DNA of 35,630 nucleotides, taken from the IMG/VR virus record IMGVR_UViG_3300025864_000034, positions 1-35,630 of that record. One strand, given 5' to 3'. A program made the translations under genes and the position numbers. The first letter of the stretch is position 1; each line of letters starts with the position of its first letter. Positions 7,064 through 33,714 of this stretch are shown piece by piece. The notes beneath the pieces are model-generated. The model saw only the letters and a list, made by a program, of their open reading frames with translations, searched no databases and was not told the origin of the DNA. The stretch comes from a virus.

Positions 7064-7360
7064 TTGAAAATAATTATAAACGCAACAAACATTACAGAGG
7101 ATAGACCACTTAGGGAAGCTGACCGTCTTATCACTATGGGCTTGGCTCACTTACCAGAAGTTAAACCTGTACCTGTTAAAACTTATAATGGCTATGTCCA
7201 AAGTGAACAGCCGGAAATAACTTTCGAAGATTTAAATGATATAGCAATATTTAGTGAACCAGTTACAGAGGTTGATGTTATCGAACCTATTCCAGTAGAT
7301 AAATATGTAGATTTTGATGAACCTAAAAAAGCCAAGAAAAAACAATTCTGGAATAAATGA
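7064..7360 (+). CDS. Small hypothetical protein sharing the N-terminal module of the adjacent glycosyltransferase
   Basis: The start is taken as TTG at 7064, four bases after a GGAGA site; this gives a 98-residue protein beginning MKIIINATNITEDRPLREAD. That parallels the next gene's start, MKIILNVDANIFPDRKKAGD, including the following LITMGLAHLPE versus FRWINSGRAHYPG. The rest is acidic and proline-rich with a lysine-rich end. The shared ~40-residue module may be a binding or docking domain resembling those in phage structural proteins. It overlaps the glycosyltransferase by 4 bases, implying coupled expression. Confidence 0.7.
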   Translation: MKIIINATNITEDRPLREADRLITMGLAHLPEVKPVPVKTYNGYVQSEQPEITFEDLNDIAIFSEPVTEVDVIEPIPVDKYVDFDEPKKAKKKQFWNK

Positions 7361-8664
7361 AAATAATTTTAAATGTTGATGCTAATATCTTTCCAGACCG
7401 CAAGAAGGCCGGAGATGAAGTTGACATTCCGGACAATTTAGCTTTTAGGTGGATAAATTCCGGTCGTGCACATTACCCTGGCTATTGGGAATTTAGAAAA
7501 ACCAGTGAATTTAAGCATATCTCTAAACAACGTCAGTCTGAGGCATTAAATCTAAACGTAATCTGCTCCGGTCTGATGTTTGGTTACTCTGGTTTTGCCG
7601 AAGCTATGAGAAATATAGCGTATTCGTTATACATGAAAGGTTGCTATGTTTCAGTACAACCGCACGACCATGTTAGCAGTGATATTCTAAATACTGAAAA
7701 GGGTAGAGTTATAAATATGTTGCAAACTTCTACTCTTAAAAATGACTATAAATCTGTACGCATTACAATGACATCTCCTTTAGGTGTCGTGCATAAAAGT
7801 AATGAATATCGTATCGGTTATGTAATGTTTGAAACACAGGAGACTCCGAAAGTCTTTATTGATTCATTGATGATAAACACAGATGAATTGTGGGTTCCTT
7901 CAACTTTTAACTTAAATAATTTTACTAAGGCAGGTTATACACACCCGATATTTTGTATGCCTTTAGGTGTTGACATTGACAGGTTCAACACTGATACAGT
8001 GAAGCCTCTAAACATAGGAGTAGACGGTAAATTTACATTCTTATCCATTATGGGTTGGAGTGCAAGAAAAGGTGTAGATATCCTCATGGAGGCTTATTTA
8101 AGAGAATTTAGCAGCGCAGATAATACCGTTTTATATATGAAAGGCGGCTGGTATACACCTGAGAAAGCAAGGAACGAAGTTAATCAGATAATATCTAAAA
8201 TAGGCAAGAAAGACCCTCCCGAAATTAAGATTGATTTTAACCTTTATAATGACTCGCAATTACCAGGATTATATAAAAGCGCTAACTGTTTTGTTCTACC
8301 TTCGTTAGGTGAAGGCTGGGGCTTGGATTATACAGAGGCTATGGCTATGGCACTTCCTACTATTGGAACAAGAGCAACAAGTCAGTTAGATTTTATGAAT
8401 GATAAGAACAGTTTTTTAATCGATGTTGCAGAGTATAGACCTGAAGAACGCTGTGATTGGATATGTCCGCAGTATCGTGGAGGCGACTTTGCAATCCCTT
8501 CAATGGAACACTTACAGAAATTAATGAGGCAAGTTTACAGCGAGCCTGAATTAGCTAAGAAAATTGGAGCGCAGGCAAGAAAAGATATGATTAAAAAATG
8601 GCAGTGGAAACACGCAGCTAATAAATGGTATAAACGACTGAAAGAATTAGAGATTAATTTATAG
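7357..8664 (+). CDS. Glycosyltransferase, GT4-like (GT-B fold), with N-terminal extra module
   Basis: A 435-residue enzyme predicted to move a sugar from an activated donor. The C-terminal Rossmann-like half carries the GT4 signature SLGEGWGLDYTEAMAMALPT near residue 320, i.e. the donor-binding E-x7-E. Before it, FTFLSIMGWSARKGVDILMEA is the typical start of the second GT-B domain. Residues 1-45 form the module shared with the preceding small protein. Acceptor and donor cannot be read from sequence. Placed between a head gene cluster and an epimerase, it probably acts in a late-expressed glycan modification. Confidence 0.88.
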   Translation: MKIILNVDANIFPDRKKAGDEVDIPDNLAFRWINSGRAHYPGYWEFRKTSEFKHISKQRQSEALNLNVICSGLMFGYSGFAEAMRNIAYSLYMKGCYVSVQPHDHVSSDILNTEKGRVINMLQTSTLKNDYKSVRITMTSPLGVVHKSNEYRIGYVMFETQETPKVFIDSLMINTDELWVPSTFNLNNFTKAGYTHPIFCMPLGVDIDRFNTDTVKPLNIGVDGKFTFLSIMGWSARKGVDILMEAYLREFSSADNTVLYMKGGWYTPEKARNEVNQIISKIGKKDPPEIKIDFNLYNDSQLPGLYKSANCFVLPSLGEGWGLDYTEAMAMALPTIGTRATSQLDFMNDKNSFLIDVAEYRPEERCDWICPQYRGGDFAIPSMEHLQKLMRQVYSEPELAKKIGAQARKDMIKKWQWKHAANKWYKRLKELEINL

Positions 8665-9080: not shown

Positions 9081-9884
9081 ATGATAAATTATATCACCGG
9101 CGCAAATGGTTTCGTAGGCTCACATTTAGTTAAAGCCTTAGAAGATGTTACACCCTTGGAGGATATTGTCTGTATCCCTCATTCAGAGATAATGGATACT
9201 AAACTTCAACCGTTTGATAATCTTTATTTCTTGTCGACTTATGGCAATATGTATCTTCACACCGATGAGCGCAAGATTATGCAGGCTAATATAGATGACT
9301 TATGCCATTTATTAGATGATGCAAGAAGATATAAGTTTAAATCTTTTATTTATATGAGTTCCTCATCTGTAGAACTTCCAGTTCAGACCAGGTATTCAGA
9401 AACTAAAAAAATAGCAGAAGAAATTTTACTACCATTTATTGAAAACTATAATCTTCCTATTTGCATAATCCGCCCTTACAGTATAACCGGTGTAGGAGAG
9501 CAGAAAGAACACCTTATCCCAACACTAATCAGGTCATGTTTTACCGGTGAACTTGTAAACTTTGTGCCGGAACCTAAGCATGATTACATTGACGTAAATG
9601 ACGTTGTATCAGAAATCTTACAGTTATCAGCTTCTTGTTCTAAAGGAATATTTAGATTAGGCAATAGTTTCGGTGTATCAAACGCAGAGGTTTTGAAATT
9701 AGTAGAATCTGCAACGGCTTCTAAAGGTGGCAGGAAAGCCAATATTAATATAGTCGATAATTTGCGTCCTTACGATAGCAAAGACTGGTTTGCTAAAGAT
9801 TACATATCAAGAGAGCACTGGACTCAACGTAGACCACTAAATGACACTATAAAAGCAATGGTTAATGATTATGCTGGAACTTAA
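9081..9884 (+). CDS. NAD-dependent epimerase/dehydratase (extended SDR family)
   Basis: A 267-residue nucleotide-sugar modifying enzyme. The N-terminal TGANGFVG (residues 6-13) is the dinucleotide-binding glycine motif, and the catalytic Y105-x3-K109 is in RYSETKK. CIIRPYSITGVGEQ and HDYIDVNDVV are typical of the extended SDR core. Such enzymes act on NDP-sugars, which fits the neighbouring glycosyltransferases, but the exact reaction cannot be assigned. It is somewhat shorter than the usual ~310 residues. The 3' end overlaps the following methyltransferase by 14 bases. Confidence 0.9.
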   Translation: MINYITGANGFVGSHLVKALEDVTPLEDIVCIPHSEIMDTKLQPFDNLYFLSTYGNMYLHTDERKIMQANIDDLCHLLDDARRYKFKSFIYMSSSSVELPVQTRYSETKKIAEEILLPFIENYNLPICIIRPYSITGVGEQKEHLIPTLIRSCFTGELVNFVPEPKHDYIDVNDVVSEILQLSASCSKGIFRLGNSFGVSNAEVLKLVESATASKGGRKANINIVDNLRPYDSKDWFAKDYISREHWTQRRPLNDTIKAMVNDYAGT

Positions 9885-12012: not shown

Positions 12013-12087
12013 TGCGGTATAGTTTAACGGTAAAACCAAAGGTTCATACCCTTTAGACGAGGGTTCGACTCCTTCTACTCGCAACCA
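12013..12087 (+). tRNA. tRNA with CAT anticodon (Met- or Ile2-type), imperfect acceptor
   Basis: A cloverleaf can be drawn: D stem GTTT/AAAC, anticodon stem AAAGG/CCTTT with loop TTCATAC (anticodon CAT at 12045-12047), T stem GAGGG/CCTTC with the canonical TTCGACT loop, and an encoded CCA. The acceptor pairs only in its outer five positions (TGCGG with TCGCA), with two mismatches and one extra base near the T stem. It may be degenerate or partly functional. It closes cassette 3 before the terminator. Confidence 0.82.
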
Positions 12088-31736: not shown

Positions 31737-32492
31737 ACGAAAGTAATCAGAAAAAAGATAACAACAGATTTAGACCATATATATATCGTTCCGCTATCAG
31801 ACTTCCATTTAGGCGATCCGCTATTTGATAGAGAGAAATTGCAGGGTTATGTTGACTGGATTCTAAAGACACCAAACGCTTATACCTTCATCAATGGAGA
31901 CGTGTTTGATTGTGCAATCATGGGGAGCAAAGGGAATCCTTACGATGCCGTTATGACAGTTCAGGCAGCTAAGAAAATAGCCAAAGAAATATTATCACCT
32001 ATTAAAGATAGAATCCTGGGCGTTACTACTGGTAACCATGAGCGGAGGATATATAAGGCTACAGGAAATGATGTATCCGAAGATTTAGCCATGATGTTAA
32101 ACGTGGAGGATTTATATGATGCAAGTGGATTGATTCTACACATTAATATTAACGATAGAATTACCTATATCATATACATGAAGCACGGCGCTGGCGGTGG
32201 AAAAACACAAGCATATAGGTTAAAGAAGTTAAAAGAACTCTCCGATATTGTTAAGGATGTTGATATATACATAATAGGCCATGTCCACGATGTTTTAACC
32301 TTTAGTTTAAATCCATATTTTGTAGATGTAGAAACAGGGGAAAATGTGCAAAAGAAACAGACTTATGTATCTTCCGGTTCTTACTTAAATTATGGAGGGT
32401 ATGCAGAGGATTTGAATTTTGAACCTGGAAAAATGGGCAGTCCTAGGATTCGGCTAAATGTAGTAAAAAAAGATGTCCATGTATCAATTTGA
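31737..32492 (+). CDS. Calcineurin-like metallophosphoesterase, apparent ACG start
   Basis: A two-metal phosphoesterase. Counting from 31737, SDFHLGD gives D22 and H24, INGDVFD gives D55, TTGNHERR gives N100-H101, and GHVHD gives H182 and H184: a full metal centre. No ATG, GTG or TTG precedes the D22/H24 motif. The frame opens after TAA 31731 and ACG at 31737 is seven bases behind AAGGAG, giving MKVIRKKITTDLDHIYIVPL, which reads like a normal N-terminus. A TTG at 31839 would delete the first motif. It may hydrolyse a nucleotide or DNA end; the exact substrate is open. Confidence 0.82.
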   Translation, partial: TKVIRKKITTDLDHIYIVPLSDFHLGDPLFDREKLQGYVDWILKTPNAYTFINGDVFDCAIMGSKGNPYDAVMTVQAAKKIAKEILSPIKDRILGVTTGNHERRIYKATGNDVSEDLAMMLNVEDLYDASGLILHININDRITYIIYMKHGAGGGKTQAYRLKKLKELSDIVKDVDIYIIGHVHDVLTFSLNPYFVDVETGENVQKKQTYVSSGSYLNYGGYAEDLNFEPGKMGSPRIRLNVVKKDVHVSI

Positions 32493-32686
32493 ACCATCCG
32501 GAATTTCCGGTTAGTTGAGCTTGTGCATTTTTTGCACGTGTACATTTAACATACATTCAATATACAAATATACTGCTATCTAATCTTAAAGCAGTAATTT
32601 TGTATACAACAATTCCCATTTTGGGAATATAAAGCTGTATGCAAGTTATCAATAACATTGTCATAAAAGTTGTCTTAAGGAGAAAC

Positions 32687-32890
32687 ATGGAATTTATTCG
32701 CTACACAAGTAAGTCTGACATTCAGGAGTTAAAAAACCATTCGATGGATTTAAAAGATTTCATATCAAATACCGATTTTGTAAAAGATACAAAAGAAATG
32801 TATGCGTTTGATGATTCTGTTTTCCCTCAAGACTGGTCGTCTATTTATGAGGTTACAATAACCATAAAAGATGTGGATGTAACCATATAA
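32687..32890 (+). CDS. Small hypothetical protein (67 aa)
   Basis: ATG 32687 is four bases behind AAGGAG; an upstream in-frame ATG at 32639 lacks a site. The product MEFIRYTSKSDIQELKNHSM is acidic and ends in a strand-like EVTITIKDVDVTI. It resembles an antitoxin-sized or regulatory protein, but no family is recognised. Its leader (32493-32640) holds hairpins ACTGCT/AGCAGT and ATTCCC-ATTTT-GGGAAT. Confidence 0.6.
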   Translation: MEFIRYTSKSDIQELKNHSMDLKDFISNTDFVKDTKEMYAFDDSVFPQDWSSIYEVTITIKDVDVTI

Positions 32891-33326
32891 GATAGTATGC
32901 GATAACAAAGTTTATATCGTATAGTAACACTATTCAATTTAATACAATAATACACACTGGTAAACCGTAAGTATACCCTTAATATAATATTGGCAGTGTT
33001 ATATCACATTATTCATACCATAGGCGGTATATTTTTCGCCTAATTGGCAGTTAATGGGTATAAGTATCTACAATTTGTAGACGTTTCAACAGTTGCTGAA
33101 ACAATAATATTTAATGGAACTGTTAAAAAAGTTGGCTTCATGCCAATAGGACAGCAGAGATCCTAGCGGGATGCCTGCGTAGCGGGCTACCCTGCAAAAA
33201 CTGCTTATAGGTTAGCTGGTAGGATTAGAGATAACAGCGAATAATATAACTGCTAGGCGGAATACTCTAATTAAATTCCTGATATGTGGTTTCTAGCAGA
33301 ACCGAACACAAAACCATGCATACTGT
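32891..33326 (+). ncRNA. Putative large structured noncoding RNA with several pseudoknots
   Basis: There is no good reading frame in 32891-33579 apart from the tRNA. Many compensating stems are visible: ACACTG 32954/CAGTGT 32994; TATACCC 32972/GGGTATA 33056; TAGGCG 33021/CGCCTA 33037; GTTTCA 33083/TGAAAC 33097 whose loop ACAGTT pairs with AACTGT 33118; CCTGC/GCGGG at 33174-33186; ATTAGAG 33224/CTCTAAT 33265; CTGCTAG 33250/CTAGCAG 33293; TGGTTT 33287/AAACCA 33311. Several cross, making pseudoknots. A long RNA upstream of phage tRNAs recalls the GOLLD/ROOL classes. Identity is not provable by eye, and the boundaries are approximate. Confidence 0.55.
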
Positions 33327-33406
33327 GGGGGCGTAAAAGAGCGACTACTATTACATCCTAATTAGGACTTAGTAGAACAGGGGAGCGTTACCTCTCGCCT
33401 CCACCA
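33327..33406 (+). ncRNA. tRNA-like minihelix with G3-U70 and encoded CCA
   Basis: GGGGGCG (33327-33333) pairs with CGCCTCC (33396-33402) in a 7-bp acceptor with one G-U at positions 3:70, the alanine identity pair; A then CCA follow. A 5-bp T stem AGGGG/CCTCT with a 7-base loop AGCGTTA stacks below, the exact spacing of a tRNA. The T loop lacks TTCGA. Instead of D and anticodon arms there is a long arm: CTACTA/TAGTAG enclosing TCCTAATTAGGA. The 5' side (GGGGGCGTAAAAGAGCGAC) resembles a tmRNA start. It may be the 3' domain of the upstream RNA. Confidence 0.6.
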
Positions 33407-33407
33407 C

Positions 33408-33483
33408 TGCGGAATACAATTCTGGTGAATTGAGGAGTCTCATAAGCTCTTTTAGGCTGGTTCGATTCCAGTTTCCGCTACCA
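33408..33483 (+). tRNA. tRNA with CAT anticodon (Met or Ile2)
   Basis: 76 bases in regular layout: acceptor TGCGGAA/TTCCGCT with a 1:72 T-T mismatch, T8-A9, D stem CAAT/ATTG, anticodon stem GGAGT/GCTCT around CTCATAA (anticodon CAT at 33441-33443), 5-base variable loop, T stem GCTGG/CCAGT with TTCGATT, A73 and CCA. The unpaired 1:72 is an initiator-like trait, but the three G-C pairs of initiator anticodon stems are absent, so elongator Met or CAT-Ile is likelier. It begins two bases after the tRNA-like CCA. Confidence 0.9.
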
Positions 33484-33579
33484 ATTATGTTTCAAGTTAA
33501 GTCTCTAAGTTGAAATAACACCATTATTGATTTTAAGTTATTTCTCTACAATATAAAAATTTATACTATAAAGGAACAT

Positions 33580-33714
33580 ATGGCATATTATGAACGATGG
33601 AACTTGGACTTTCATGAGTTAATTAACAAAAATATTTGCCCTATTTGCGGAAATCAGTTAATACCGGAGGGCAGATGTAAATATTGTATAACGGGGGATT
33701 GGTCAGCATGTTAA
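33580..33714 (+). CDS. Small zinc-ribbon protein (44 aa)
   Basis: MAYYERWNLDFHELINKNIC begins a 44-residue protein with CPIC and CKYC, two CxxC pairs fourteen residues apart, a minimal zinc ribbon. An AAGGAA site precedes the ATG. It overlaps the following gene by 7 bases. Unknown role. Confidence 0.65.
   Translation: MAYYERWNLDFHELINKNICPICGNQLIPEGRCKYCITGDWSAC

Follow-up and report, generated by a model that had tools for sequence, protein, structure and literature searches.

The last 80 nucleotides of a structured non-coding region in a siphovirus-like phage (positions 33327-33406) are best explained as a diverged TLD-only tmRNA, that is, a tmRNA-derived tRNA-like domain (TLD) without message domain; judged from the sequence and by analogy with a similar phage RNA, it would have about an even chance of acting as a decoy of trans-translation. 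The approximately 430 nucleotides that precede it are a modular, partly conserved structured segment. The region thus combines a diverged member of a rare but known kind of RNA with an unclassified modular segment, and it is not a GOLLD or ROOL RNA. At least about 29 further distinct TLD-only tmRNAs were found in unrelated phage contigs.

The locus and its 3' end

The window, i.e., the whole stretch of 35,630 nucleotides that was analysed, is a linear IMG/VR record with terminase, portal, capsid, tape measure, tail and lysis genes. Amid its head genes are a glycosyltransferase (7357-8664) and a nucleotide-sugar epimerase (9081-9884). The region that interests us (32891-33406) is flanked by a metallophosphoesterase and a small ORF on one side and by a holin on the other. 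It is non-coding: as the initial annotation had held, it contains no convincing gene, the longest stop-to-stop frame in 32891-33326 being 41 amino acids. A tRNA-Met begins directly after the TLD. This tRNA, also carried by one of the relatives described below (L124), has the unpaired U1-U72 of initiator tRNAs, but its anticodon stem lacks the three G-C pairs that initiators have. A second tRNA with a CAT anticodon lies in the structural-gene part (12014-12083; Rfam 53.3 bits); it was not called by ARAGORN and its acceptor stem appears one base short.

Two contigs are syntenic with the window across this region and provide the two homologues found for the upstream segment: L002, reached through a scan with the holin, and L124, reached through the downstream small protein. 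The holin scan retrieved only L002 and the metallophosphoesterase scan no relative. Sequence patterns derived from the conserved 5' element and from the window-type TLD matched only L002 and only L124, respectively, and blastn against phage records returned tRNA matches only. The conserved pieces are an AT-rich hairpin and the 5' element (Table 1); the 3' end and the tRNA are 90% identical to L124 over 158 nt, and the middle of the region differs among the three phages.

Table 1 Features of the window and contigs carrying further TLD-only tmRNAs
Feature	Positions	Strand	Basis or remark
AT-rich 9-bp hairpin 3' of the upstream small ORF	32896..32923	+	Fold; conserved in L002 and L124
Conserved 5' element	32968..33080	+	79.8% to L002; three-way alignment; RNA or DNA element
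TATACCC/GGGTATA helix	32972-32978/33056-33062	+	Invariant in three phages
ATACC/GGTAT hairpin	33015-33019/33026-33030	+	Three-way alignment
GTTTCA/TGAAAC hairpin	33083..33102	+	Kept in L124
Hairpin with tip GGCUUCAYGCC	33132..33146	+	Tip also present in L124 and L002, on different stems (comparison and folds)
Variable module	33210..33321	+	Closed by weak GCUGGU/ACCAUGC helix (33215-33220 with 33313-33319)
TLD-only tmRNA	33327..33406	+	R1 model, L124 covariation, L002 slot
TLD acceptor stem	33327-33333/33396-33402	+	G3:U70 at 33329:33400
TLD H2-like stem	33345-33350/33370-33375	+	
TLD inner hairpin	33356-33359/33364-33367	+	
TLD T stem; T loop	33379-33383/33391-33395; 33384-33390	+	
TLD A73 and CCA	33403-33406	+	
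tRNA-Met (CAT) with encoded CCA	33408..33483	+	ARAGORN; Rfam tRNA 40.2 bits
Exact stems	32954-59/32994-99; 32972-78/33056-62; 33088-94/33118-24		Sequence match
Exact stems	33224-30/33265-71; 33250-56/33293-99; 33287-92/33311-16		Sequence match
Contigs with TLD-only tmRNAs			L002, L003, L008, L019, L023, L032, L035, L039, L040, L044, L047, L050, L051, L058, L059, L060, L064, L071, L075, L092, L095, L096, L101, L102, L104, L111, L115, L121, L139

The structure of the 3' 80 nucleotides is upheld by covariation. The window copy and its L124 orthologue are identical at 63 of 80 positions, and 11 of the 17 differences fall in stems, where they amount to five double compensations and a single change from C-G to U-G. 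None of the 22 pairs is lost in L124, an outcome that the random placement of 11 stem substitutions produced in 2 of 400,000 trials. The L124 copy retains G3:U70, A73 and CCA, and its first pair changed from G1-C72 to U-A. This covariation supports the earlier proposal of a structured phage RNA locus beside a tRNA gene. It also bears on the possibility that the sequence is what is left of a tmRNA or tRNA gene in decay: the diverged T and D loops and the position of the window copy under the Rfam threshold could suggest such a decay, but the compensatory changes and the lack of any broken pair make it very improbable.

The same slot in L002 (4815-4894) is occupied by a canonical tmRNA TLD of 80 nt without message domain, which matches the RF00023 model over its entire length (62.9 bits, cut-off 47) and has in full the tmRNA-type D region (UUCGACRGG) and T loop (UUCRANU). 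In the window copy, only CGAC is kept of the D region; its T loop (AGCGUUA) and that of L124 (GGCAGUA) depart from the tmRNA form and resemble the alpha_tmRNA consensus GGCgGUA. The acceptor and the T arm, with G3:U70, A73 and CCA, are present, yet the window copy has no RF00023 match at E ≤ 5 and is therefore below the gathering threshold that L002 exceeds. The putative common descent of the window and L002 TLDs is accordingly a matter of position, acceptor and CGAC, not of overall sequence. An ordinary tRNA is called at this place neither by ARAGORN nor by the Rfam tRNA model: there is no D stem and no 7-nt anticodon loop, hence no four-arm cloverleaf with an anticodon. Only about 20 nt separate the strands of the H2-like stem, with no tag reading frame or pseudoknots inside the TLD, and neither RF00023 nor RF04321 matched a message domain or coding piece elsewhere in the record.

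Two other origins may be considered for a lone tmRNA end. The alphaproteobacterial permuted tmRNA (RF01849) has the T loop that those of the window and L124 resemble, but it is a two-piece molecule with a coding piece, whereas the TLD has its two acceptor strands on a single piece and no partner exceeded the cut-off; a permuted tmRNA was thus rejected. Unannotated permuted two-piece tmRNAs were seen in two other phages, Xanthomonas phage Rb1 (L152, 1477-1782, RF04321 at 103 bits) and Xanthomonas phage XacN1 (L153, 1475-1774, 123 bits). Alternatively, the TLD could be the attachment site of a temperate phage, a tmRNA fragment that rebuilds the host gene on integration. Phages integrating into tmRNA do carry its 3' part, and Mycobacterium phage Validus has a T-arm-only fragment beside its integrase. 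Nevertheless, the 5' acceptor strand and the D region are also present here, making a complete TLD, and no tyrosine integrase was found in the three syntenic records, which are possibly fragments. We rejected this hypothesis as exceedingly improbable.

TLD-only tmRNAs in other phages

IMG/VR was searched with a pattern that required the tmRNA D region and, after a short gap, the T arm. Because this pattern fixed the D region and the T loop and left the acceptor free, neither the acceptor pairs nor G3:U70 depend on the way in which the copies were retrieved, with the caveat that only copies with paired acceptors were kept. All the further copies mentioned above carry G3:U70. A model, R1, was built from nine aligned phage TLD-only tmRNAs, leaving out the three syntenic phages; in this plain MAFFT alignment 100% of the cells pair and there are 29 double changes. 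R1 recovers exactly 33327-33406 in the window at 39.4 bits, over its full length (positions 1-81) and with every pair standard, a score above those of all ordinary tRNAs in 410 kb (best, 34.9). Other TLD-only copies score 48-91 bits, and the L124 copy, with 34.2, no better than the best tRNAs. When the 30 distinct copies (29 plus the window) are aligned, G3:U70 is found in 30/30, 98.8% of the cells pair and the changes affect both sides in 113 cells, a number matched by 0 of 500 shuffles; this alignment was fitted to the model, and the nine-sequence MAFFT count is the cleaner test.

The strict TLD pattern matched 22 stretches in viral contigs versus 8 in a prokaryote genome collection of approximately 257 Gb. 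Most of these 8 were rejected as real TLDs, as R1 scores none of them above tRNA level with the sole exception of L135, a viral contig in a single-cell genome whose length and sequence are the same as those of the virus contig L059. Among 14 records searched whole with RF00023, 11 have a single match above the cut-off, which is the approximately 80-nt TLD, one (G006) has its TLD just below it, and the window and L124 have none. Neither a full tmRNA nor a permuted partner exceeded the cut-off in the records searched. No SmpB gene was found in the 10 records checked, so that the RNA would have to use the SmpB of the host. Several copies lie in tRNA clusters and others directly before structural genes. 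In L058, the TLD-only tmRNA (924-1005) is 30 nt upstream of a major capsid gene and may there take part in mRNA processing.

The upstream segment

The initial annotation described the whole region as one large pseudoknotted RNA, possibly GOLLD- or ROOL-like or of a new class. All the stems it named are present as exact Watson-Crick matches (Table 1), and their density does exceed chance, although the excess is modest: 300 dinucleotide-preserving shuffles of 32891-33406 gave 12.7±3.6 exact stems of at least 6 bp versus 22 observed (p = 0.013), and 8.5±6.3 crossing stem pairs versus 31 (p = 0.007). The folding energy of 32891-33490, tRNA included, has a z of -2.95. Not every listed stem is functional, however: the pseudoknot 33088/33118 is broken in L124, and those of 33224-33316 lie in the part that fails to align between relatives. 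Beyond the stems themselves, the picture of a single large RNA missed that its 3' end is a separate tRNA-shaped RNA. The suggestion of a new class was half right: that end belongs to a known, very rare kind, and what precedes it is an unclassified, modular non-coding segment.

GOLLD and ROOL are structured non-coding RNAs found near tRNAs in phages (PMC12286853), and the size, the pseudoknot density and the adjoining tRNA of the region recall them. Yet the Rfam GOLLD, ROOL and tmRNA models have zero matches at E ≤ 5 in 32400-33700, where only the tRNA is detected, Rfam searches of L002 and L124 likewise found neither GOLLD nor ROOL, and the middle of the region is not conserved between these close relatives. 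A GOLLD- or ROOL-like identity of the whole region is therefore scarcely credible.

The comparison of the three phages rather points to exchangeable parts. A helix, GUUGC-UGGUU/AACCA-U-GCAAU, is common to L002 and L124, and the window has a weak counterpart. In L002 this shared helix closes off a short hairpin, in L124 a skipping-rope RNA (RF02924, 56.8 bits). Such an RNA was rejected in the window, which has no match to the Rfam model, and L002 has none either. The motif TTTAGGTTGCTGG is found at two places, 100 nt from each other, in L124 (5178-5290) and opens a structured module each time, the second of which encloses the skipping-rope RNA. Elsewhere, skipping-rope RNAs stand alone as phage small RNAs, as in L140 (43193-43270, minus strand) and L147 (4268-4348), each immediately preceded by a promoter-like -10 box and followed by a terminator-like hairpin and T run.

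Several scenarios may explain the association of this segment with the TLD. One possibility, which we regard as unlikely, is that the approximately 515 nt form one modular phage RNA whose tmRNA-derived tRNA-like end, joined to swappable structured domains such as the skipping-rope RNA of L124 or the GGCUUCAYGCC hairpin of L002, would bring this RNA payload to SmpB, EF-Tu or stalled ribosomes. Another, somewhat less doubtful though still improbable, is that the TLD is a processing or end-protection module, RNase P cutting at 33327 to make the 3' end of a functional upstream RNA. The TLD does abut the tRNA-Met and follow the partly conserved segment, and other TLD-only copies are found 0-30 nt from structural genes. 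Nevertheless, most of those copies have no long structured segment upstream, and a plain tRNA would serve the same purpose, leaving the universal G3:U70 without need.

A candidate decoy of trans-translation

The reading that we favour, a decoy, would start from a tmRNA TLD that lost its message domain and pseudoknots and whose D and T loops diverged. It would be transcribed together with the upstream segment and the downstream tRNA-Met and cut out of the transcript by RNase P and the tRNA 3' machinery. It would then be charged with alanine through G3:U70 and A73 and bind SmpB and EF-Tu and, having neither resume codon nor tag, compete with the host tmRNA for SmpB and stalled ribosomes. As a result, trans-translation would be damped during the infection. 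The original experiment on inhibition by such a molecule is reportedly that of Mao et al. 2009, known here from later accounts.

We counted in favour of this mechanism the TLD in the L002 slot, the R1 score, the covariation with L124, the conservation of G3:U70, the lack of a full tmRNA or permuted partner above the cut-off and the absence of an SmpB gene in the records checked. Against it, we counted the failure of the Rfam tmRNA models, the tRNA-level R1 score of L124, the low overall sequence likeness to the L002 TLD and the fact that the T loop and most of the D region of the window copy are off the tmRNA consensus seen by its SmpB and EF-Tu partners. The decoy reading is put forward because of the precedent of phage DS6A, which, according to two accounts, carries little more than a TLD (PMC4131195; PMC11915505). 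A TLD-only molecule like that of DS6A, chargeable with alanine or not, is described there as strongly inhibiting tmRNA (PMC4131195; also PMC11915505), perhaps via titration of SmpB (PMC4131195). Compared by published description, both RNAs are phage tmRNAs cut to about the TLD, with no tag frame, whereas in the window copy the D and T loops have diverged; it stays below the Rfam tmRNA thresholds and follows a structured non-coding segment in a tRNA cluster.

That all copies conserve G3:U70 suggests that being charged is important to these RNAs. Since plain SmpB titration would not need it, an alternative stays in play, which we nonetheless judge decidedly unlikely: the TLD would be an alanine donor, or a sponge for EF-Tu and AlaRS, which would extend stalled chains by a single alanine and then release them or mark them without a tag. 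The presence of A73 along with G3:U70 in all copies, which titration alone would not require, and the reported independence of the inhibition from charging were counted for it. Against it, we counted the need for a release mechanism that does without a resume codon, and the diverged T loop of the window copy.

Of the 97,179 entries of the 2025 tmRNA database, nine are tmRNAs of standard form that lack a tag frame, DS6A being the named phage example (PMC11915505). Jakobid mitochondrial tmRNA and plastid forms of approximately 65 bp also lack the message domain (PMC11915505, PMC3985003), but they are organelle-encoded, not viral, and the jakobid ones are mostly permuted. Stripped-down tmRNAs have been reported so far from a single phage, to which at least about 29 further distinct phage copies are added here, and this recurrence is a more interesting result than the identity of the window copy, which illustrates the extent of drift that such an RNA can undergo while the TLD structure is held. 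The G3:U70 and the strong covariation of about 29 copies suggest that phages repeatedly block or subvert ribosome rescue, a strategy that would use an 80-nt RNA overlooked by tRNA finders.
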